From positions 1 through 29,114 of the IMG/VR virus record IMGVR_UViG_3300042351_000642: a stretch of DNA of 29,114 nt; one strand, 5' to 3'. Numbering within the stretch: position 1 is the first letter of the stretch; every line of letters starts with the position of its first letter. Below the pieces are notes generated by a model. It saw nothing but the letters and a program-made list of their open reading frames with translations, was not told the origin of the DNA and did no database searches. The stretch comes from a virus. The position numbers and the translations under genes were made by a program. Below, piece by piece: positions 4,717 through 26,205 of the stretch.

Positions 4717-5118
4717 ATGAGCTTCGAATTTAACCGAAACATTCAAGACAAGAATTACACCTCCACTGTTGCGATTGCACAGGCTGGTGCAAACACCGCA
4801 GCATTTGACCTCGAACAAGCAGTTGGTGGCGACATCGAGCGAGTAGTTTTCTCGCTTTCTGCACCGACCGCTGCTGGCATCTCCGACACCAAAGTCGTGA
4901 CCTACGCACTGCAAGACAGCGCCGACGGTTCTTCATGGGCTGCCGTTGATCCAGCAATCAGCACGACTCAGACTGGTGCAGGTGGCGCTGGTATCGTTGC
5001 CAAAGAGGTTCGCTTCCGCGTTCCAGCTAACACCCGCCGCTATGTGCGCATCGCTCAAACGATGACTGCCACGGCTGGCACTGTTACTGGCAGCATGGTC
5101 GCCAAGCTTTTGTTCTAA
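4717..5118 (+). CDS. Capsid decoration/cement protein, Bbp16-like
   Basis: 133 residues, immediately after the capsid gene. A beta-rich protein with VVTYALQDSADGSSWAAVD, then FRVPANTRRYVRIAQT and a final LLF, the pattern of small Bbp16-type cement proteins that bind between capsomers and stabilise the filled head. No transmembrane segment or signal peptide. The start follows ACAAAATC with no Shine-Dalgarno. A strong hairpin lies just downstream, which may set the expression level of the capsid/cement pair. Head-decoration role is inferred from both pattern and position. Confidence 0.6.
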   Translation: MSFEFNRNIQDKNYTSTVAIAQAGANTAAFDLEQAVGGDIERVVFSLSAPTAAGISDTKVVTYALQDSADGSSWAAVDPAISTTQTGAGGAGIVAKEVRFRVPANTRRYVRIAQTMTATAGTVTGSMVAKLLF

Positions 5119-5139
5119 TCCGTTGGAACTTGTGTGCAA

Positions 5140-5174
5140 AGGGCGGCGGAGTTGGTAGTTTCCTCCGCCGCCCT
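5140..5174 (+). terminator. GC-rich hairpin after the capsid genes
   Basis: AGGGCGGCGGAG (5140-5151) pairs perfectly with CTCCGCCGCCCT (5163-5174) across an 11-base loop. The following bases are AAATTC, so there is no U-tract. It could be a partial terminator or a stop to 3'-exonucleases that protects the abundant capsid/cement mRNA. The next gene in the same direction starts 23 bases further and shows no promoter of its own, so full termination is unlikely. Confidence 0.65.
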
Positions 5175-5197
5175 AAATTCTTGAAACTCAAATCATC

Positions 5198-5650
5198 ATG
5201 GCTTGGCTCGCTCTAACATATTCCGCACTTCGTGACAGACTCTCAACCGAGGAGTTCAATCGTTTGCTTGCCGAATGTCCGACACCCGAGGATAAAGCGC
5301 AGGAGATCCTCACGAGCGTAGCACAAGACATTGCCTCACGCGTCAACTCAGGTCGTCGCAAGCGTGGATTGCCTCCAGTGGTCAACACTGGCTTGTATGT
5401 TCCACCGGGCGCACGCAGGCACGCATACAATCTCTCACGCCAAGAGCTTACAGATTCCTATCCATCGCTCGCAGAATTTAACGGCGATGATCGACGCAGA
5501 GCAGTTGAGGAAGCCAACAGCTATCTCGATGACCTTGCCAACAACAACGCAGACTCCGATGATACCGGAGCCGAATCATTCGCTGCTATTAGCGGCAGTT
5601 CTTTTCGTTATGGCGGCGCTGCTGTCATGAACTTTTCAGAATCACCATGA
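5198..5650 (+). CDS. Head-tail connector/adaptor, gp36-like
   Basis: 150 residues. The first gene after the head block and the first of a tightly spaced connector/tail series. The helical N-terminal part (WLALTYSALRDRLSTEEF) and the middle (RRRAVEEANSYLDDLAN) follow the plan of head-completion adaptors of the Mu gp36/DUF1320 sort, which form a ring below the portal. The last 30 residues are Ser/Ala/Gly-rich and probably disordered. The assignment depends largely on position and overall pattern. Leader AACTCAAATCATC, no Shine-Dalgarno. Confidence 0.5.
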   Translation: MAWLALTYSALRDRLSTEEFNRLLAECPTPEDKAQEILTSVAQDIASRVNSGRRKRGLPPVVNTGLYVPPGARRHAYNLSRQELTDSYPSLAEFNGDDRRRAVEEANSYLDDLANNNADSDDTGAESFAAISGSSFRYGGAAVMNFSESP

Positions 5651-6132
5651 GCCTCATACGTCAGATAGTCGAAAGCATGGCAAAGACGCTGAAAGATCAT
5701 GCGTATTTTCGCACCGTGCCGATTATTCCCGTGCTGGTTCAAGACCACAAAGACATCGACCGCGAGATCGAGAACGCAATGAGCAAGGCAGGCGCTTTCG
5801 TCATGGTCAACTTTTCACAGAGTGAGGCATCGTCACCCGACACGCCCGGACCATACATGGACTCAGCGACGTTCTCGGTTACTTGCTCGGAGATTCCAAG
5901 CGTCTGGAGACAGCAGGCTGGTAACATGTCAAAACCAAGCGCAACAGAGATCGGCGAGGCAGTGGCTCGCATTCTGCACCATCACAAACCACTTGACGCT
6001 AGCGGTGATTCACTCACAGGCGGCGTTCTCACTTTTGATTCCATGCAAGAGGACGCGACGCCTCCGATGCTTCAACAAATCATCACTTTCAATTGCCCCG
6101 TGGGGCTACAAAATACAACTCCAACACGCTAA
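5647..6132 (+). CDS. Tail terminator/completion protein (gp37-like)
   Basis: 161 residues, ATGA-coupled to the adaptor gene. It lies between the connector and the tail tube gene, where siphophages encode the protein that caps the tail and joins it to the head. Visible parts are LKDHAYFRTVPIIPVLVQD near the N terminus (alpha/beta start typical of 'minor tail' terminators), VMVNFSQSEASSPD, then FSVTCSEIPSVWRQ and a C-terminal ITFNCPVGLQ strand. No catalytic motif is expected. Function inferred from context and secondary-structure pattern. Confidence 0.5.
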   Translation: MSLIRQIVESMAKTLKDHAYFRTVPIIPVLVQDHKDIDREIENAMSKAGAFVMVNFSQSEASSPDTPGPYMDSATFSVTCSEIPSVWRQQAGNMSKPSATEIGEAVARILHHHKPLDASGDSLTGGVLTFDSMQEDATPPMLQQIITFNCPVGLQNTTPTR

Positions 6133-6138
6133 ACCATC

Positions 6139-7050
6139 ATGCCAACATTCGACAGAACCACCATCGTTCGCGGTCCTTGCAAAGTCACCTATGATTCGCA
6201 AACATTCTACTCCAAAGCTGGAGTAGTGCTGACCACGACCAACTCGACATTCGACAAAGAAACTGACGCTTACGGCATCGTGAGCAAGTCGAAAACCGAC
6301 TTCACTATCGTTGTTGAATTTGAGCCAGTTGGTGAAATCGAGGCGCTCGCAGTTCTCTTCCCGCACGGCAACACCGCAATGGGAGCCAGCATCTACGGTT
6401 CGACCGACAAGAACCTTGTCATCGTATCGGCTGATAAAACCTACACGATACTCAACGCTCAGATCACGCAGATGCCGACCATCTCGTGCAGCGCGACCAA
6501 GACCGCGTTCGGCTCGGTGCAGTTCACAGGATTGCTCAAGAAAGACGGCGACCCACAGAACATCGAGGACTACTACACGACCGCAGGCGGCGATAGCATC
6601 GGCACAGGATTCAACCCATCGTTGATCTACACCGCACCTTACACCGCGACACTTGGAGCACTTGATCCATTCATGAGCGCAGAAGGCTTTGAGATCAGCT
6701 TTGACCTTTCACTCAATCCAGTGCTCGTCGATGGCATCGGCACGGTGGACATGAGCATGGGAAATCTAGGCTGCAACATCACTTGCATTCCGACTGGCAT
6801 TGATCAACTTGACTTCGATACCTTCTTCGACAACCTCAGCGCAGGCGAGGACTTGGCAGTAAGCGCACTCGAAATCAAAACCACTACAGTGGGAGGATTG
6901 GACTTCGATGCAGCAGCGGTTCAAGTCACCGAGCTTCAACGCAACTTTTCTGCGAGTGATAACCGACTCGGCACGCTCACCATGAGCGCCAAGCGGACAT
7001 TCAACGCAGGCGCATCAGTCACCCTATTCCAAATCGGCGCAGTATCCTAA
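6139..7050 (+). CDS. Major tail tube protein
   Basis: 303 residues, beta-rich, no transmembrane segment. Segments GASIYGSTDKNLVI, YTILNAQITQMPTISCSATK and FGSVQFTGLLKKDGDPQN are characteristic of a tail-tube family in environmental siphophages; the middle 'QITQMPTI' strand and a later C-terminal half (EGFEISFDLSLNPV, GTLTMSAKRTF) fit two beta-sandwich lobes. It forms stacked hexameric rings around the tape measure. It sits after the tail terminator and two genes before the tape measure, as expected. Confidence 0.72.
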   Translation: MPTFDRTTIVRGPCKVTYDSQTFYSKAGVVLTTTNSTFDKETDAYGIVSKSKTDFTIVVEFEPVGEIEALAVLFPHGNTAMGASIYGSTDKNLVIVSADKTYTILNAQITQMPTISCSATKTAFGSVQFTGLLKKDGDPQNIEDYYTTAGGDSIGTGFNPSLIYTAPYTATLGALDPFMSAEGFEISFDLSLNPVLVDGIGTVDMSMGNLGCNITCIPTGIDQLDFDTFFDNLSAGEDLAVSALEIKTTTVGGLDFDAAAVQVTELQRNFSASDNRLGTLTMSAKRTFNAGASVTLFQIGAVS

Positions 7051-7053
7051 GCA

Positions 7054-7797
7054 ATGTTCGTAAGACTCCAGCGCGGCGCGATTGCTTACGACCTCGCCGG
7101 TGGCGATGGTCAAAGAAGCGAAACGTCCAACTTCCAAATCTCGGCTGAGCCGAACTTTCAGCAGGTGCAATACATCGAGGCTGACCAGTTCGATCAGTTC
7201 TTCCGTGGTGGATCTAGCACGACTGTCAGTTTTGACAGCGTGCTGACATTCACGTCACTAACCGATGCTGAGAACTACTTGCTCAACATGCCTCAAGGCT
7301 TGCTCTCACAGGCGAGCCAAACGGCGACGATTGGCAGGCTGACAGCGGCAGGCACAGTGCAATCCGAGACGCTAACTTGCGTCGGCACAACGACTGGAGC
7401 TGGTAACATCAACTGGTCCTTCACAAGCGTGGACGTGACAGCGAGCGGATCGACGGCGGTTCTATCAGGCGACACGCCGACACAATACGCGGCGAAGATT
7501 GCGACATCGCTTAACGCAAATTCAAGCATTGCATTTCGCTACATCATCACGAGTTCAGGTGCGACCGTTATCATCACAAAGCGCCAAGCAGAAGCCAATG
7601 ACGGCACGCTTGCACTTGTCACCACAAACGGCTCGCCATCGCCAGTTATCACAGGTGCAACGAGCGCAAACACAACGGCAGGAGTTGCACCGACAATCTC
7701 CAACTCGAAAACGCTCTCCAGCGTCTCATGCGTGGTAAATCTTGCGCAAAACGGAGTTTCGATCTTGCAAAACGTAACACTACTCGGTAAATACTAG
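7054..7797 (+). CDS. Tail protein with inserted beta domain
   Basis: 247 residues between tail tube and tape measure. The ends (1-100: YIEADQFDQFFRGGSSTTVSF and LTDAENYLLNMPQGLL; last 30: VSCVVNLAQNGVSILQNVTLL) look like one domain. Between them, residues about 103-213, lies a module I recognise from many phage tail proteins: a Thr/Val-rich stretch, GDTPTQYAAKIATSLNANSS, a 'GATVIITK' strand, NDGTLALVT, and ATSANTTAGVAPTI. In other phages that module occurs alone or in tandem in tail tubes and fibres. It may be a second tube or tube-adaptor protein with an exposed appendage. Tail-assembly chaperones would normally occupy this place. Confidence 0.5.
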   Translation: MFVRLQRGAIAYDLAGGDGQRSETSNFQISAEPNFQQVQYIEADQFDQFFRGGSSTTVSFDSVLTFTSLTDAENYLLNMPQGLLSQASQTATIGRLTAAGTVQSETLTCVGTTTGAGNINWSFTSVDVTASGSTAVLSGDTPTQYAAKIATSLNANSSIAFRYIITSSGATVIITKRQAEANDGTLALVTTNGSPSPVITGATSANTTAGVAPTISNSKTLSSVSCVVNLAQNGVSILQNVTLLGKY

Positions 7798-7799
7798 CC

Positions 7800-9386
7800 A
7801 TGGCAGCGAAGAACGTCGATATTAAGATCAACACAACTGCAAGCGGGACAGGCGCGAAGCAGACGGAAGATGGTCTAAAAAAAGTAGGCGAGGAGGCAGA
7901 AAAATCCAGTAAGAAAAGAATCTCTGCCGAAGAAAGAGCGGCACTAAAAGCCGAGCAAGCAGCACAAAAAGCTGCTGATGCAGCAGTTCGGGAGGAACAA
8001 CGAAAGACCGCAGCGACAGAAGCGGAAGCAGCGAAGCGAGTCAAAGCGGAACAAAAAGCTCAAGCGCAAGTAGAACAAGCTACAGCAAAATCAGCAAGTA
8101 GGCGCAGTCAGATGGCTGGGCAAGTTGGATTACAGGCTCAGGACATTGCGGTGCAGGCGCAGATGGGAACGAGCGCGGTCACGATCTTGGCACAGCAAGG
8201 CACGCAGATTGCCAGCATCTTCGGACCGCAGGGAGCCATTGTTGGCGCTCTCATCGGCGTCGGTGCAGTTGCGGCAAAAGTATTCTACGACATGGCTGTG
8301 GCTTCTGCGGTGACAGGCGAGGCGATGGAGGACATGAGCGACAAGCTCAAAGAAGCGTTTGACGATCAGGCGAAGAAATCAATCGAGGACTTCAACGCGC
8401 AGTTGCAAAATCAAACAAACATTGCGCAGTCATTGCGTGAAGTAGAAGTGGACTTGCTAGAAGCACGTTTAGACCGTCAAGAAGCTGACTCATCCATCAT
8501 TGCCTCACAATCAGCTCTGGAAGTGGCTGCTGTAAAATATCTCCAGACCATAGGGCAGACTGTGAACGCTGAAAAGCAACTGGCAGCAATCAGAAAATCA
8601 GAGGCAGAAGCACAAAAGGCTGCACAGATACAAGACATTGAGAATCAAGTGACAGTTGCGCGCGAGCGTTACAAGCAGTATTCAGATCAATATCAAGAAG
8701 TCCAAGGTCAGACCGATCAGGCACAAAAGCGACTTGCTGAACTTGAAAAAAGGCAGCAAGAACTCATGTCATCTTTGAATTTCAGCCGTAGAATGGACGC
8801 GCAAAGCCGAGACGCTGGAACGCTCGGACAAGATGAGACATCTGGCAAAACGAACGCTTTAACAGCGGAGATGGATGCGCTGAAAAAAGAAATAGGCGGC
8901 ATTTACAATATCATCAACAAAGCTCCTGAAAGACTCGCAGAGATCACAAATCAAGCGATTGTTTCAGCATCATCGCTGCAAAATCTAGTTGATGATTCGG
9001 CTTCACAGATTGCAAAGATCAACGAGAAATACAACCTGACGACAAAAGCGCAGGAACTCGGTGCGACGACAGAACTCATCACCAAGGGCGCGGCTGAAAT
9101 CGTCAAAGTCATCAGTGAATTCGATGCAGTGACACCTCTCCAGCAGCAGGCGAAGGCAGAAGCACTAGAAGCAGCAAGCGATGGAGTCATCACTGCACAA
9201 GAACAAATCAAGATTTCTGGCAATCTCAGAACTCTTATGAGTTCGCTCAAAACAGGGCAAGAAGGCAATCTGAAAACGCTACAAGATCTTTTGAAGCTCA
9301 ATGACACGATTGGAGTCAAGATGCAACAAATGTCGAATCAAATCAAAGGTCTAAAAGAAAAGATCAGTAACATCAAAATTTCATAA
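7800..9386 (+). CDS. Tail tape measure protein
   Basis: 528 residues. Sets tail length and is ejected with the DNA. Residues about 25-105 are an Ala/Glu/Lys coiled coil. Residues 107-155 hold the family motif GLQAQDIAVQAQMGTSA..ILAQQGTQIASIFGPQGA followed by a hydrophobic stretch (IVGALIGVGAVAAKVF, about 147-162). The rest is helical and Gln/Glu-rich (about 180-320, 360-528). At about 0.15 nm per residue, 528 residues predict a short tail near 80 nm. The stop overlaps the next start (TAATG). Identity is strong from motif, composition and position. Confidence 0.85.
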   Translation: MAAKNVDIKINTTASGTGAKQTEDGLKKVGEEAEKSSKKRISAEERAALKAEQAAQKAADAAVREEQRKTAATEAEAAKRVKAEQKAQAQVEQATAKSASRRSQMAGQVGLQAQDIAVQAQMGTSAVTILAQQGTQIASIFGPQGAIVGALIGVGAVAAKVFYDMAVASAVTGEAMEDMSDKLKEAFDDQAKKSIEDFNAQLQNQTNIAQSLREVEVDLLEARLDRQEADSSIIASQSALEVAAVKYLQTIGQTVNAEKQLAAIRKSEAEAQKAAQIQDIENQVTVARERYKQYSDQYQEVQGQTDQAQKRLAELEKRQQELMSSLNFSRRMDAQSRDAGTLGQDETSGKTNALTAEMDALKKEIGGIYNIINKAPERLAEITNQAIVSASSLQNLVDDSASQIAKINEKYNLTTKAQELGATTELITKGAAEIVKVISEFDAVTPLQQQAKAEALEAASDGVITAQEQIKISGNLRTLMSSLKTGQEGNLKTLQDLLKLNDTIGVKMQQMSNQIKGLKEKISNIKIS

Positions 9387-11365
9387 TGCCAGTCTGGACC
9401 ATAACAGGAGAAGCAGCAAAAGCTTGGGACACAACGTCCAAGACTCTGGCAGAGCGTGCAGTAGAAAACGCATCGCTCACGTTCCGCAGCGTCGGCACCG
9501 ATGAATTGGTGCTGAACATCTCACCAGAAAACATTGTTAGCTACACGGCGCCGACCTATGCGCAGAGGGTCGATCTTTTCCGCAACGGCACGCGGTTCTT
9601 CACGGGTTACGTCACAAATGTCCGAACGACATCGAACAACTCGATCACGGTCACGATCAGCAATGCCTGGTGGTTCATGGAACGGATCAACTACGTCACG
9701 AGCCAGACCGATGGATCTGGAGCAAGTGCGAATCGACTGACTGGAGTTTTCGGCAATGCAACAAGCGGGACGAATCTCACCACGGCGATACAGACCGCTA
9801 TTGATACGAGCGTTTCACTTGGCGTGCCGATGGCAAACATCACAGGAGGTAGCACGGTCGGGACGTATTTCGACATCCCGCGCGTCACGCTCAACCAGTC
9901 AACGTGCGCACAGGTTATCAGTGAGCTTGTAAGGCTCGTTCCTGACACGATGACCTATTTCGACTATACGAACTCGACTCCGACATTCAACGTCGTCAGG
10001 AGGGCAGCAGCGACCACTCGCACGCTCACGATCGGCACGTCACCCGTTGAGGATTTCGACGTCAACCCGATGATCGAACTGCAAGTATCGCAGGTGGTTC
10101 TACCATACGTCACACGAGACACAAACGGATTGACGAGCTACCAGACGCAATCGTCAGGCACAGCGGCAACGGGCAAGATCCAAGTGCTGACAATCAGCGG
10201 TCCAGAACTCGACACCTTCCTGCCGAGCGAGTATTTCGATTCTGCCACGCTGACAGGATTCCCGCTCGCTACGCAGTTCGAGGATTTCGTTTTATCGTCA
10301 TCGCAATTCGCTGGAGCGGTGGCAAACGGGCTTCGATTTACTAACATCAACATTCAACAGGGGCAGCGGCAATACAGCGGCTACAATTCAGGAAAGGGAC
10401 CAACTACTGGCACTTTCAGTCCGAACGTTCGATCTGTTCAATACACACAGCCAGCGGCATCTATTACCGACGACACGGGACAGCCTGCTTCACTTGGCTC
10501 ACAGTTGATCCTCTCCGACAACTTGCCAGAATGGGCAATTACGGCACACAATCTCAAGCCTATCGTTATCTCTGGACAATGGATTTACGAATGGAAAGAT
10601 CAAGTGTTTGATTTCGGAGATGGGTATGAGCAGAATGAATCATTGCCTCAATGGCTACCTTCATTAACTCGCGAACAAAAGGATTCATATTGGGATGGCG
10701 ATTTCCACTACATTCTGATCGGTGGCGAATACACCGTGCAAGGCTACACGACCAGCAGCTCGACGCTTCCTCACATGTATGGAACCACGCAAACTGGCAC
10801 GACCACGGGAACCTTGATCCTTGCATCGACAGCAAGCTCGATTAACGGCTTTTACACCGGCATGAGAATCGCCTACATGCAGAAGCCAGGGTCAGGAGGA
10901 CCAGACGGAGTAAATGACGTTTGGTATATCGCGACGATCACCGGTTACAACGGCACGACAAAGGCAGCGACATATACGACCTCAACAGGACCAGCGACAA
11001 GATCGGGCTTTCCGTATCGTATTCTCGGCACGAAGGTGTTTGCTCCCGCAGACTACTCTTTCATTTCTCCACCGGCGAACCTCGCGGCAAACTTGCTCAC
11101 AACGATGAATTTTATCCCCTACGAAGGCAGCGTGCGGATCACAGAACAGACGGCAGGCGGCACACGATACCGTGGATGCAAAGTCAACCTTGACAACACA
11201 CGCAGCGAGCTTGCCAGTATGGGAGCCATGGTCGCAGAGGAAACGCTCGACCTCAAGAACGGCACAACAGATTTGACGCTTGGCACTCCACCGAGGCTCG
11301 ACTACCGCAGCTTTACTGACAAAATCCGCAGGACTTCACAAGACAACATCGTTTTCAATCCATGA
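9386..11365 (+). CDS. Baseplate hub / tail-tip protein
   Basis: 659 residues directly after the tape measure. The N-terminal half (VDLFRNGTRFFTGYVTNVRTT, then ITVTISNAWWFMERI, then a helix with CAQVISELVRLVPDTMTYFDY) resembles the gpD/gp27-like hub fold of tail-tip proteins. The C-terminal region NFIPYEGSVRITEQ, then LGTPPRLDYRSFTDKI and RRTSQDNIV, is the end I associate with this type of phage hub. It forms the ring closing the tube and carries fibres. No hydrolase motif was recognised. There is no separate Dit gene before it, so this protein may combine Dit- and Tal-like roles. ATGA-coupled to the next gene. Confidence 0.65.
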   Translation: MPVWTITGEAAKAWDTTSKTLAERAVENASLTFRSVGTDELVLNISPENIVSYTAPTYAQRVDLFRNGTRFFTGYVTNVRTTSNNSITVTISNAWWFMERINYVTSQTDGSGASANRLTGVFGNATSGTNLTTAIQTAIDTSVSLGVPMANITGGSTVGTYFDIPRVTLNQSTCAQVISELVRLVPDTMTYFDYTNSTPTFNVVRRAAATTRTLTIGTSPVEDFDVNPMIELQVSQVVLPYVTRDTNGLTSYQTQSSGTAATGKIQVLTISGPELDTFLPSEYFDSATLTGFPLATQFEDFVLSSSQFAGAVANGLRFTNINIQQGQRQYSGYNSGKGPTTGTFSPNVRSVQYTQPAASITDDTGQPASLGSQLILSDNLPEWAITAHNLKPIVISGQWIYEWKDQVFDFGDGYEQNESLPQWLPSLTREQKDSYWDGDFHYILIGGEYTVQGYTTSSSTLPHMYGTTQTGTTTGTLILASTASSINGFYTGMRIAYMQKPGSGGPDGVNDVWYIATITGYNGTTKAATYTTSTGPATRSGFPYRILGTKVFAPADYSFISPPANLAANLLTTMNFIPYEGSVRITEQTAGGTRYRGCKVNLDNTRSELASMGAMVAEETLDLKNGTTDLTLGTPPRLDYRSFTDKIRRTSQDNIVFNP

Positions 11366-23355: not shown

Positions 23356-23730
23356 ATGACACCACTAAAACTACTACAACTTGTTATCCGCACGCCAAAA
23401 GGCGACATCTCACGCGAGCAAATCAAACATTTGATTTATGGCATGAGCATCTACCGAGCACTCTTCCTGCTGGAGCTGGCGCAATACGACACGCCTGTCC
23501 GTACGGGAGACATGCAAGCGGCATCTCAAAAATGCTGCGATCACAGATACCTCAAAGGCTGGAAAGGTCACGAGCGGTATATCATGAAGATCAAGCATGA
23601 GCAGTTCACAAATCCGCACAGTTTCTATACATATATTCTTACCGAGAAAGGGCGCGAGGAAGCTGCGGAGATCAGCGCAAACCTTCAGGGCATGATCGAC
23701 CAAATCGCCAAATCGAAAATGATTGCTTGA
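23356..23730 (+). CDS. Unknown protein with winged-helix character
   Basis: 124 residues. ISREQIKHLIYGMSIYRALF, then FYTYILTEKGREEAAEI near the end resembles the wing and 'LTekG' end of MarR-like winged-helix proteins. The centre has CCDHRYLKGWKGHERYIM. No known family assigned. One base after the methyltransferase stop, so it belongs to the same transcript and could regulate it. Confidence 0.5.
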   Translation: MTPLKLLQLVIRTPKGDISREQIKHLIYGMSIYRALFLLELAQYDTPVRTGDMQAASQKCCDHRYLKGWKGHERYIMKIKHEQFTNPHSFYTYILTEKGREEAAEISANLQGMIDQIAKSKMIA

Positions 23731-23757
23731 GAAATTGCACAAAATAGCGCATATTGC
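23727..23757 (+). promoter_or_regulatory. Promoter P3 before the small RNA / HNH region
   Basis: TTGAGA (23727-23732), 17-base spacer, CATATT (23750-23755; TATTGC when read as in P1), then GCGCGTCAC at 23758-23766. The nine-base GCGCGTCAC also follows the -10 of P1. The -35 region differs from P1 and P2, so this is a weaker match. Confidence 0.45.
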
Positions 23758-23763
23758 GCGCGT

Positions 23764-23874
23764 CACGACCGGACCCGTGATTAACCTTAAAAACATTTTC
23801 CCCGCCATGGGGTCAGTTCTGCAAATGCTCAGGCACGCGCAGGTCCGGACTGACAACGTGGCGGGATTTTTATT
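23764..23874 (+). ncRNA. Candidate structured small RNA or attenuator leader
   Basis: Between promoter P3 and the HNH gene, 23801-23819 pairs with 23847-23865 in a 19-position stem (17 pairs counting two G-U, two mismatches) around a 27-base loop, followed by ATTTTTATT (23866-23874). The helix is CCCGCCA..., then GTCAGTTC matched by GGACTGAC. With a promoter in front and a U-rich end, this could be an independent RNA of about 110 bases; it could also simply be the terminator of the upstream gene or an attenuator for the HNH gene. Confidence 0.5.
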
Positions 23875-23884
23875 GTCCAAAATT

Positions 23885-24322
23885 ATGAGCAAACAAACGT
23901 ATTACGAAAAACTAAAAGACCCAAGATGGCAGCGTAAGAGACTGGAAGTTATGAATCGAGCACATTTTTTATGTGAAAAATGTTATAATGAGAACAATAC
24001 ACTTAACGTGCATCACCTTTACTATATGAGCAAGCGTGATCCTTGGGATTATCCAGATTTTGCATTGATATGCATTTGCAATGAGTGCCACGCTGAAGAG
24101 CATGAAAATAAATTCAACACATTTGAAGAAACAATAGAGAGCCTAGTTGAAGATCAGTTTTTCAATCCTTACATTCTTGAAATTATAAATCAAATATATT
24201 TAGCGAGGGAAAGCGGTCTTGAAATGAGCAAATTTCTTTATGATTGCTTAGAATCAATTACAAATATCAGACAAAAGCTCGAAAAAATAAACCAGCACGA
24301 TAATGAGGATCAGAACAATTAA
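23885..24322 (+). CDS. HNH endonuclease
   Basis: 145 residues from ATG 23885; frames reaching further upstream run through the hairpin and are rejected. DPRWQRKRLEVMNRAHFLCE, then CEKCYNENNTLNVHHLYYMS (Cys30, Cys33, His43-His44), then LICICNECHAEEH (Cys65, Cys68, His69, His73) give a full HNH/beta-beta-alpha-metal core with a structural zinc. Helical C-terminal tail. A+T-rich. Could be a free-standing homing endonuclease or a nuclease aiding packaging or host DNA breakdown. Overlaps the next gene by 20 bases. Confidence 0.8.
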   Translation: MSKQTYYEKLKDPRWQRKRLEVMNRAHFLCEKCYNENNTLNVHHLYYMSKRDPWDYPDFALICICNECHAEEHENKFNTFEETIESLVEDQFFNPYILEIINQIYLARESGLEMSKFLYDCLESITNIRQKLEKINQHDNEDQNN

Positions 24323-25325
24323 ACCAGAATTTTGGGCGCATCCCGTGATGTCCAGACAATCAGACAGCACCAAGTTGCTTGCGATTGGATTATTGAACGT
24401 AGCAGATGACGAAGGCTATTTTTTCGCAGATGCGAGAATGATACGAAATCTAATCAGACCATTGGATGACGATTCCCGTATCACTACTGTATCAATACGG
24501 GAGCTGTCCGAAATAGGGTATGTCGAACTGCGAAAACATGAAAGCCATGGAGACATCGGCAGGATACCTAGTTTCCTTTTGCATCAGGTCATCAATAAGC
24601 CAAAAACAAGCAAGATAAAGGAGTTTTTCGACTACGGTAGCAATACCGTATCAATACGGGATGAATACCGTCTGGAAAGGAAAGGAACAGGGAGCAAGGG
24701 AACAGGTAAAGGAAAAGGAATGGAATTGATCTCTTGCCCGATTTCATCGGACGAAAGTGAGATTTTGAAAATGATCTGGTCTGGTTGCCCTAAAGAGGGC
24801 AGGGAAAGAAGCGGGAAACAAAAGCTTGCTGATGCTTGGCGAAAAATACCAGCAAAAGACAAACCGACAAAAGCCATAATTGAAAACGCTTTGACAGCTT
24901 GGAACGCGAGCAATAAATGGCAAACTGGATTTTGCGAGGGAATAGAGAAATGGGTCAAGAATCGACAATGGGAGAACTTGCCAGAATCACAAGGGATGAC
25001 ACCCACATCAATTCCAACCGACGACGACATTTTACTGATGGGCGCAATCGACAGCATCAGAACTTCATGGCAGAAAATTCCGTGGAACAATGAAGATCGA
25101 GCCGCGCTGACGAAATACAAAGAACAGCTCGCTGCGTTGACCGATGATGACTTGCAAATCTTGAAAGCATATTTTGAATCGACAGCCGAAGGATATTTTC
25201 GACCAGACAACCGCAGCAAGTTCTGCGAATCACTCAGCGGCATTTGGACAGCTTGCGAACGCTGGAAAAATGCCACAGGCTACCGCGCGCCAAACTCACG
25301 AGACTCACTCTACTACGGATCATGA
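24303..25325 (+). CDS. Replication-initiator-like protein (O/DnaD type)
   Basis: 340 residues. RIRTIKPEFWAHPVMSRQSD (2-21), LLAIGLLNVADDEGYFFAD (27-45), SIRELSEIGYVEL and IPSFLLHQVINKPK (about 88-101) are the conserved start of phage replication proteins that bind the origin by an N-terminal winged helix. A Lys/Gly linker (about 124-140: KGTGSKGTGKGKG) leads to a helical C-terminal part, probably the helicase/loader-contact domain. Iteron-like repeats lie in the part coding for residues 58-124. No helicase gene is in the window, so the host's may be recruited. Confidence 0.65.
   Translation: MRIRTIKPEFWAHPVMSRQSDSTKLLAIGLLNVADDEGYFFADARMIRNLIRPLDDDSRITTVSIRELSEIGYVELRKHESHGDIGRIPSFLLHQVINKPKTSKIKEFFDYGSNTVSIRDEYRLERKGTGSKGTGKGKGMELISCPISSDESEILKMIWSGCPKEGRERSGKQKLADAWRKIPAKDKPTKAIIENALTAWNASNKWQTGFCEGIEKWVKNRQWENLPESQGMTPTSIPTDDDILLMGAIDSIRTSWQKIPWNNEDRAALTKYKEQLAALTDDDLQILKAYFESTAEGYFRPDNRSKFCESLSGIWTACERWKNATGYRAPNSRDSLYYGS
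24475..24673. other. Candidate replication origin: 11-bp iterons inside the initiator gene
   Basis: 24641-24673 is three tandem 11-base units: CAATACCGTAT, CAATACGGGAT, GAATACCGTCT. A second cluster at 24480-24501 has ATCACTACTGT and ATCAATACGGG. GTATCAATACGGGA occurs exactly at 24489-24502 and 24648-24661. Inverted CCCGTAT/ATACGGG pairs flank both. Directly after follows a strongly purine-biased run (about 24674-24728, AGGAAAGGAACAGGGAGCAA and on). Iterons plus an asymmetric region in the initiator gene is the lambda ori layout. Confidence 0.5.
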
Positions 25326-25678
25326 AAACACACACCGAACTACTAAACCAACTGATCGACGCTGTTTACGCGCTGCCATTTACTACTTTCAAAGAAGCTC
25401 ACGACTTGCAAATGCTAGCCGCTGAGATCAAGGGGCAGATGATGGCTGCATGCGAGAATTGCGATAGTCCGCCATTTGCGCAACCTGATTACGCAACCAC
25501 TCAACCAGCCGATGACGGGTGGATTGAGAATACGGGGGTTATGCCTGAGTGTGATATTTCCGCTATACGTTTGCACGATGGGGAGGTTATAAAAGTGGCA
25601 AACGACAAGAATTGGGCATGGGGAATGAAGTCGCCAAATCCTGAAGAATTTAGTATTACCCACTACAAACCAGCATGA
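25322..25678 (+). CDS. Unknown phage protein with C-terminal 'GE.I...W.W' domain
   Basis: 118 residues from the ATGA-overlap start. Helical N terminus (TELLNQLIDAVYALPF, then LQMLAAEIKGQMMAACENC), a linker rich in Pro/Thr/Asp, and a compact C-terminal domain DGWIENTGVMPE, ISAIRLHDGEVIKVAND, ITHYKP. That last domain type is common in small early phage proteins of unknown function. ATGA-coupled to both neighbours. Confidence 0.6.
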   Translation: MKTHTELLNQLIDAVYALPFTTFKEAHDLQMLAAEIKGQMMAACENCDSPPFAQPDYATTQPADDGWIENTGVMPECDISAIRLHDGEVIKVANDKNWAWGMKSPNPEEFSITHYKPA

Positions 25679-26205
25679 AAACACAAATCAAACTACACAC
25701 TCGACCTTGCATCAACTGCACACGTCCAAGCTCACGCGGCATGTATTGCCGATCCTGCGATGCCGTCTGGCTCATCGCTGAACGTCTCGACAACTTCCAC
25801 AAAGATCCAAAAAACAGGCAAAACTTCATTGCCGACCTGCGAAAGAGTAACCTTTTCACACCGAAGGCAATCTGGAGAGATGGCGAAGCTCGAAAGGTCA
25901 AAAAGCTCATGATCCTCGGCGAGCAGATGTCAGGATTCGTTATGGGCTTCACAAGTGCCGAAATTCGCGATTTAGTGGCGCGGGGGTATAATCTATCTAT
26001 TCGAAACGCAGAACGCGAGGAAAAGCACGCTGAGGCTCAGCAAACGGCATACTACGCAGGGCGGCAGGAAGTGGACGCGCTACATGCGCAGATCAAAGAG
26101 CAAACCAGAGCGAAACTCGGTCACCTCGGCGATGGGCTGGACTTTCGATCCTACCTCGGCTTCGATCCGACGAAAACCGACACGGATGACAGCCCGAACT
26201 TTTAA
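25675..26205 (+). CDS. Unknown protein with N-terminal zinc knuckle
   Basis: 176 residues. PCINCTRPSSRGMYCRSCDA holds Cys12, Cys15, Cys25 and Cys28, a four-cysteine zinc site. The rest is charged and helical (IADLRKSNLFTPKAIWRDGE, EIRDLVARGYNLSIRNAERE, a Gln/Ala-rich helix, then GDGLDFRSYLGFDP). Position after the replication gene suggests a DNA-metabolism role, unproven. Followed by an 18-base gap. Confidence 0.55.
   Translation: MKTQIKLHTRPCINCTRPSSRGMYCRSCDAVWLIAERLDNFHKDPKNRQNFIADLRKSNLFTPKAIWRDGEARKVKKLMILGEQMSGFVMGFTSAEIRDLVARGYNLSIRNAEREEKHAEAQQTAYYAGRQEVDALHAQIKEQTRAKLGHLGDGLDFRSYLGFDPTKTDTDDSPNF

Follow-up and report, generated by a model that had tools for sequence, protein, structure and literature searches.

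Origins of replication embedded in the gene of their own initiator have been described in several systems. The initiator gene O of phage lambda holds its own iterons in the codons that separate the DNA-binding domain from the C-terminal part, and a strand-asymmetric tract comes next (PMC7466680, PMC4488673); O/ori specificity by lineage is a known lambdoid theme (PMC4488673), and lambdoid O/ori hybrids are cited in PMC6022878. Likewise, the RepA_N initiators of pSK41 and pTZ2162 combine about 120 N-terminal residues that form a winged-helix domain, an origin located in the linker codons and an exchangeable C-terminal part, and in the natural chimera pPR9 domain and origin have been exchanged as one block (PMC5703833). 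Gene 38 of phage SPP1 is a phage replisome organizer gene with an embedded origin, oriL (PMC6316719), and a gene-embedded origin has been proposed likewise for ORF20 of the staphylococcal phage 80alpha (PMC5499656). The stretch of viral DNA analysed here (29,114 nucleotides, hereafter the window) carries a replication initiator gene with a comparable organization, in which two arrays of short iterons are found, the second directly followed by a purine tract. To judge from the parallels with lambda O, SPP1 gene 38 and pSK41 Rep, the origin most likely consists of array 2 together with the purine tract. In the open-access literature gene-internal origins of other families are present, and no description of these iterons was found.

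The earlier note on this DNA had recognised a lambda O/ori logic with a new iteron sequence. The logic stands as far as the arrangement is concerned, with iterons inside the initiator gene and then a strand-asymmetric tract, but kinship with lambda O was rejected, no match to the Pfam family Phage_rep_O being obtained and hhalign assigning lambda O a probability of 0.1%. A further likeness to lambda is the P-type gene often located 3' of the initiator in relatives of the window gene. Nevertheless, the iterons of lambda are 18-19 bp long and placed at 20-24-bp steps, whereas those of the window gene follow each other at 11-bp steps, and lambda has an AT-rich element whereas the window gene has a purine tract of average AT content. 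When lambda O was given the same treatment as the window gene, no iteron-like array was detected 5' of ori (best 9/12; shuffles average 9.9). A search with nine family members gave no match to RepA_N (PF06970) at E-values up to 10, and, in contrast to the window gene, no second array in helix codons is reported for pSK41 and pTZ2162 in the passages of PMC5703833 consulted. The SPP1 system, whose likeness to the window gene is considered here at the level of organization, differs in two respects: it possesses an AT-rich unwinding element, and a further origin is located at a distance of about 13 kb (PMC6316719).

The coordinates of the features are compiled in Table 1. Three PHROG profiles, each annotated "replication initiation protein", match the N-terminal domain (1408, E 3e-21; 16167, 3e-18; 2149, 4e-13). 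No significant match was obtained in a Pfam profile search of the 340-aa protein, and NCBIfam and PDB sequence searches returned no match to any model or chain. The AlphaFold2 model of residues 1-122 (m1b5c78dd41ca) places helices at residues 21-33, 44-51 and 58-70 and wing strands at 75-79 and 83-87, and the best fold matches in the PDB, weak as they are (E 5e-3, TM about 0.44), include N-terminal domains of RepA_N plasmid initiators (the initiator/Rep entries 4pt7, 4pql and 5kbj). In the full-length model, which is of low confidence (mean pLDDT 58), the presumed recognition helix begins at residue 65 and residues 53-62 have a pLDDT below 50. The linker codons predicted to be disordered span most of array 2 plus the purine tract. 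The C-terminal part, presumed to recruit a helicase or a loader, displays a weak match to PHROG 9327 (primosomal, E 0.007), and its residues 245-333 are matched by positions 10416-10703 of the Akkermansia phage CP084202.1, a sequence likeness that hints at a Verrucomicrobiota host. An HNH endonuclease-like ORF (23723-24322) is located directly upstream and overlaps the start of the initiator gene.

Table 1. Features of the initiator gene, in positions of the window.
Feature	Position	Strand	Remarks
Replication initiator gene	24303..25325	+	340-aa ORF; winged-helix N-terminal domain, linker, helical C-terminal part
Winged-helix DNA-binding domain, residues 1-105	24303..24617	+	Predicted; AlphaFold2 model, mean pLDDT 85
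Codons of helix 58-70, presumed recognition helix	24474..24512	+	AlphaFold2 domain model
Iteron array 1	24474..24502	.	Cores TCCCGTA 24474, TACTGTA 24485, TACGGGA 24496; 11-bp steps
Iteron array 2 (presumed core origin)	24633..24672	.	Cores TACGGTA 24633, TACCGTA 24644, TACGGGA 24655, TACCGTC 24666; 11-bp steps
Linker codons, predicted disordered, residues 115-148	24645..24746	+	pLDDT <50 in low-confidence full-length model
Purine tract, strand-asymmetric	24674..24725	+	Directly 3' of array 2
C-terminal helical part	24747..25322	+	Common to relatives with different N-terminal domains (L004, L007)

The iteron unit comprises 11 bp, a near-palindromic 7-bp core (TACNGTA) plus 4 bp. Array 1 sits on the codons of helix 58-70 of the AlphaFold2 domain model, its first core beginning with the first codon of that helix, and array 2 sits mainly in linker codons. 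The sequence GTATCAATACGGGA is present in two exact copies (24489-24502 and 24648-24661), and a search of the whole window with CCGTATCAATACSG, allowing up to two mismatches, retrieved six matches where 0.14 are expected (0/100 shuffles reach six), five of them inside the initiator gene and the sixth, a weak one with two mismatches, at 9796. The repeats pointed out in the earlier note are accordingly real, as is the concentration of matches in the initiator gene that it had led us to look for; it had counted three tandem 11-bp units, however, and array 2 has four. It had also placed all repeats between the DNA-binding and C-terminal parts, whereas the cluster that it had seen as a second, partial one is array 1, which lies inside the DNA-binding domain; the location of this array in recognition-helix codons and its concerted change by lineage had been missed. 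Cumulative GC skew, another check proposed there, proved uninformative on this fragment, its minimum lying near 20 kb and not at 24.6 kb.

Repeats within a coding sequence may be a by-product of a repeated peptide, here TVSIR, and of codon usage. In fact, the 159-nt offset between the two copies amounts to whole codons, so that both encode TVSIR in frame. Nevertheless, an 11-bp unit sets successive units in different reading frames, and the similarity was found to exceed that of synonymous-codon shuffles of the window gene (5,000-10,000, protein and codon usage unchanged). The 29-mers of array 1 and array 2 are identical at 24/29 positions, while the shuffles average 16.3 and reach at most 23 (0/10,000 reach 24); lag-11 matches amount to 21/30 in array 2 (shuffle mean 11.1, P<1e-4) and to 14/20 in array 1 (shuffle mean 7.3, P=6e-4). 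Moreover, relatives with different peptides carry their own 11-bp arrays, made of other iterons, at the same places. The codon explanation was rejected by these tests, and we regard it as scarcely credible.

Relatives were gathered from phage records with tblastn, from viral contigs by scanning and from 84,980 genomes in a single scan. This yielded 312 genes, 227 of which have distinct N-termini, and a non-redundant set of 168, all but one of them complete; the source genomes span at least eight bacterial phyla. Across the 167 relatives the autocorrelation at lags 11, 22, 33 and 44 exceeded that of synonymous shuffles both in the linker region (z=17.4, 11.3, 7.1 and 4.2) and in the helix-wing region (z=11.4, 8.0, 3.9 and 4.0), values that express an excess over coding constraint among related sequences and not a count of independent origins. 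The letters of the iterons vary by lineage (TCANTGA, TCGNCGA, TACNGTA and TCC-type), and those of the window are specific to this phage lineage, as the claim of a new iteron sequence had it. A clear purine tract is present in 130 genes. With core thresholds set after inspection of the data, the half-site classes of array 2 in these were TCA (34), TCG (25), TAC (12), TCC (4) and others (five), and in about 50 of the 130 the 7-bp palindrome template picked out no array or no clear class. On a poorly resolved tree, from which the helix columns were left out, parsimony calls for at least 15 changes of iteron type against 39 when types are shuffled; thus, iteron type follows the domain yet switches often. 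Three relatives (L163, L291 and L298) display an HNH-like motif (RD..IC.LCG) directly 3' of the winged-helix domain, at the usual place of the linker and array 2.

The purine-biased stretch noticed previously turned out to be the top purine-biased segment of the + strand of the window (score 34.5; next 22.5), and none of the pyrimidine segments scored across the window rises above 14. When the maximal purine segment was compared with that of synonymous shuffles, the tract of the window gene was in excess (P=0.005), as were those of 62% of the relatives at P<=0.05. Glycine and arginine codons within the tract were also counted, but this measure was set aside, since purines define the tract in the first place and the argument would be circular. 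In two distant phages, Marinomonas P12026 (L014) and Micromonospora pMLP1 (L015), the tract is a near-perfect GGGAACA repeat. Its AT content in the window is 55%, compared with 54.5% for the gene, and neither the window nor an alignment of 126 relatives revealed an AT-rich block on the 3' side of the iterons; in the alignment a modest AT excess (5-8%) is located 5' of array 2. An AT-rich unwinding element, as part of a lambda-like origin, is therefore not supported, and the proposed opening of the strands rests on analogy, since no such element follows the iterons.

The relationship between domain and arrays is illustrated by natural exchanges. The L003 protein, 85% identical to that of the window, has its C-terminal half in common with L004, which carries another winged-helix domain and ACGCGT-type arrays at both places. 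Up to and including the purine tract the DNA of the two genes is about 50% identical, and over the remainder of the gene the identity rises to 87-100%; the recombination junction lies at the purine tract, and the domain and both arrays were swapped as one block. In L007 a related C-terminal part stands behind a third kind of domain, accompanied by an 11-bp GGGTATCCATA array and a GGTAAAG tract, and C-terminal parts of the window type are fused to unrelated N-terminal domains in L007:4281-5357 and L008:4416-5297. The block swap between L003 and L004 and the joining seen in L007 indicate that domain and arrays move as one cassette.

Initiators often bind operators, and the arrays might instead serve in autoregulation or as a transcription roadblock, with the origin elsewhere. 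The position of array 1 within the coding sequence, 5' of array 2, and the lack of a visible AT-rich element would be in accordance with such a role. However, apart from the weak match at 9796 no iteron is found outside the initiator gene, array and purine tract are conserved as a pair that travels together with the domain, and position and architecture fit the origins known from within lambda O, SPP1 gene 38 and pSK41 rep (PMC7466680, PMC6316719, PMC5703833). We consider operators without an origin function quite unlikely.

Within a genome the two arrays share their type. Array 1 matches array 2 of its own genome better than those of other genomes (9.8 vs 7.3; maximum 8.0 in 10,000 permutations), with own-iteron matches peaking at residues 55-67 and none 3' of the purine tract. 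Among 80 genomes, with core thresholds likewise set after inspection of the data, own-type core pairs were detected in the helix codons of 36 (8.1 expected from synonymous shuffles), in the wing codons of 19 (5.3 expected) and in codons 84-99 of none, and the type matrix is nearly diagonal (own type 39/75, foreign types 7/225). The register of the helix cores is also conserved, 95/104 lying at gene nt 161, 172, 183, 194 or 205 (161+11k) over four iteron types, as in the window (TCCCGTA-TCAC-TACTGTA-TCAA-TACGGGA), L014 (TCAGTGA-GCAT-TCACGAA), L023 (TCGACGA-TAAC-TCGACGA) and L057 (TCCAAGA-AGAT-TCCCGGA). The distance between the arrays is 5-6 mod 11 in 30/49 genomes, relatedness being uncontrolled in this figure. 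Own-type cores were also observed in the codons at the beginning of helix 1 (residues 18-23) in 7/80 relatives (1.1 expected); in the corresponding stretch of the window gene (24354-24384, codons 18-27) no own-type core is evident.

With a second copy of the target in the recognition-helix codons, the reader may change in concert with its target. We tentatively put forward, as a possible explanation, that the target itself encodes the recognition helix. An ancestral array would be held in codon register there, its letters varying jointly with those of the origin array; one DNA stretch would thereby specify both the reader and a site that it reads. The part of this helix in setting specificity is suggested by the structural model, and helix 3 may not be sufficient to determine it, since L014 and L017 have the TCANTGA type in common despite quite different helix-3 sequences. 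Alternatively, array 1 may be unbound: it could be a remnant of array 2 or have arisen from it by recombination, or it could be the place where recombination lands when domains are exchanged. This explanation covers array 1 alone and is compatible with the replicator reading of array 2. In some relatives array 1 is displaced to wing codons or missing, and thus it is not essential everywhere; the block exchange between L003 and L004 would fit a recombination role, and conversion could account for the concerted letters. Nevertheless, a register kept over four iteron types is not expected of a decaying relic, and the exchange junction was found at the purine tract rather than at array 1. An unbound array 1 seems to us doubtful, if worth serious consideration.

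We hold it highly probable that the window gene is a self-contained replicator, in which the domain binds its own iterons, the tract opens and the C-terminal part recruits, and it is best read as one of the lambda-O/pSK41-Rep kind within a family lacking a Pfam or NCBIfam model. In this replicator, the winged-helix domain would bind the 11-bp iterons of its own lineage, one core per helical turn and chiefly at array 2, and the resulting protein array would distort the DNA and open the adjoining purine tract, to which the C-terminal part would bring a helicase or loader. Array 1, about 159 bp (about 15 turns) upstream, would be a second binding array whose register is fixed and which keeps pace with array 2, most likely for looping or handcuffing with it or for self-limitation of gene expression. 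Replication protein P genes are located 3' of same-domain initiators in Klebsiella ST512-KPC3phi13.3, Enterobacter Tyrion and Marinomonas P12026, the last with a replicative DNA helicase gene as well, and in Gordonia Gsput1 a helicase gene follows the initiator gene. In the window, the scan of the ORFs 3' of the initiator gene began with the second of them, 25675-26202, which had no Pfam or PHROG match; given that no P-type or helicase gene was recognised directly 3', the C-terminal part probably recruits the host helicase or an unrecognised loader.

For a very large family of phage and prophage initiators without a Pfam or NCBIfam model, the origin would become predictable from the gene alone, by a grammar of one 7-bp near-palindrome every 11 bp and then a purine tract, and origin typing of prophages and phage satellites could follow. 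The family also offers dozens of natural reader-target pairs from which the reading of DNA by winged helices may be learned, and it makes testable the idea that a binding site can encode the very helix which recognises it. If the helix is indeed encoded by its own target, these phages would possess a built-in route to new, mutually incompatible replication specificities.
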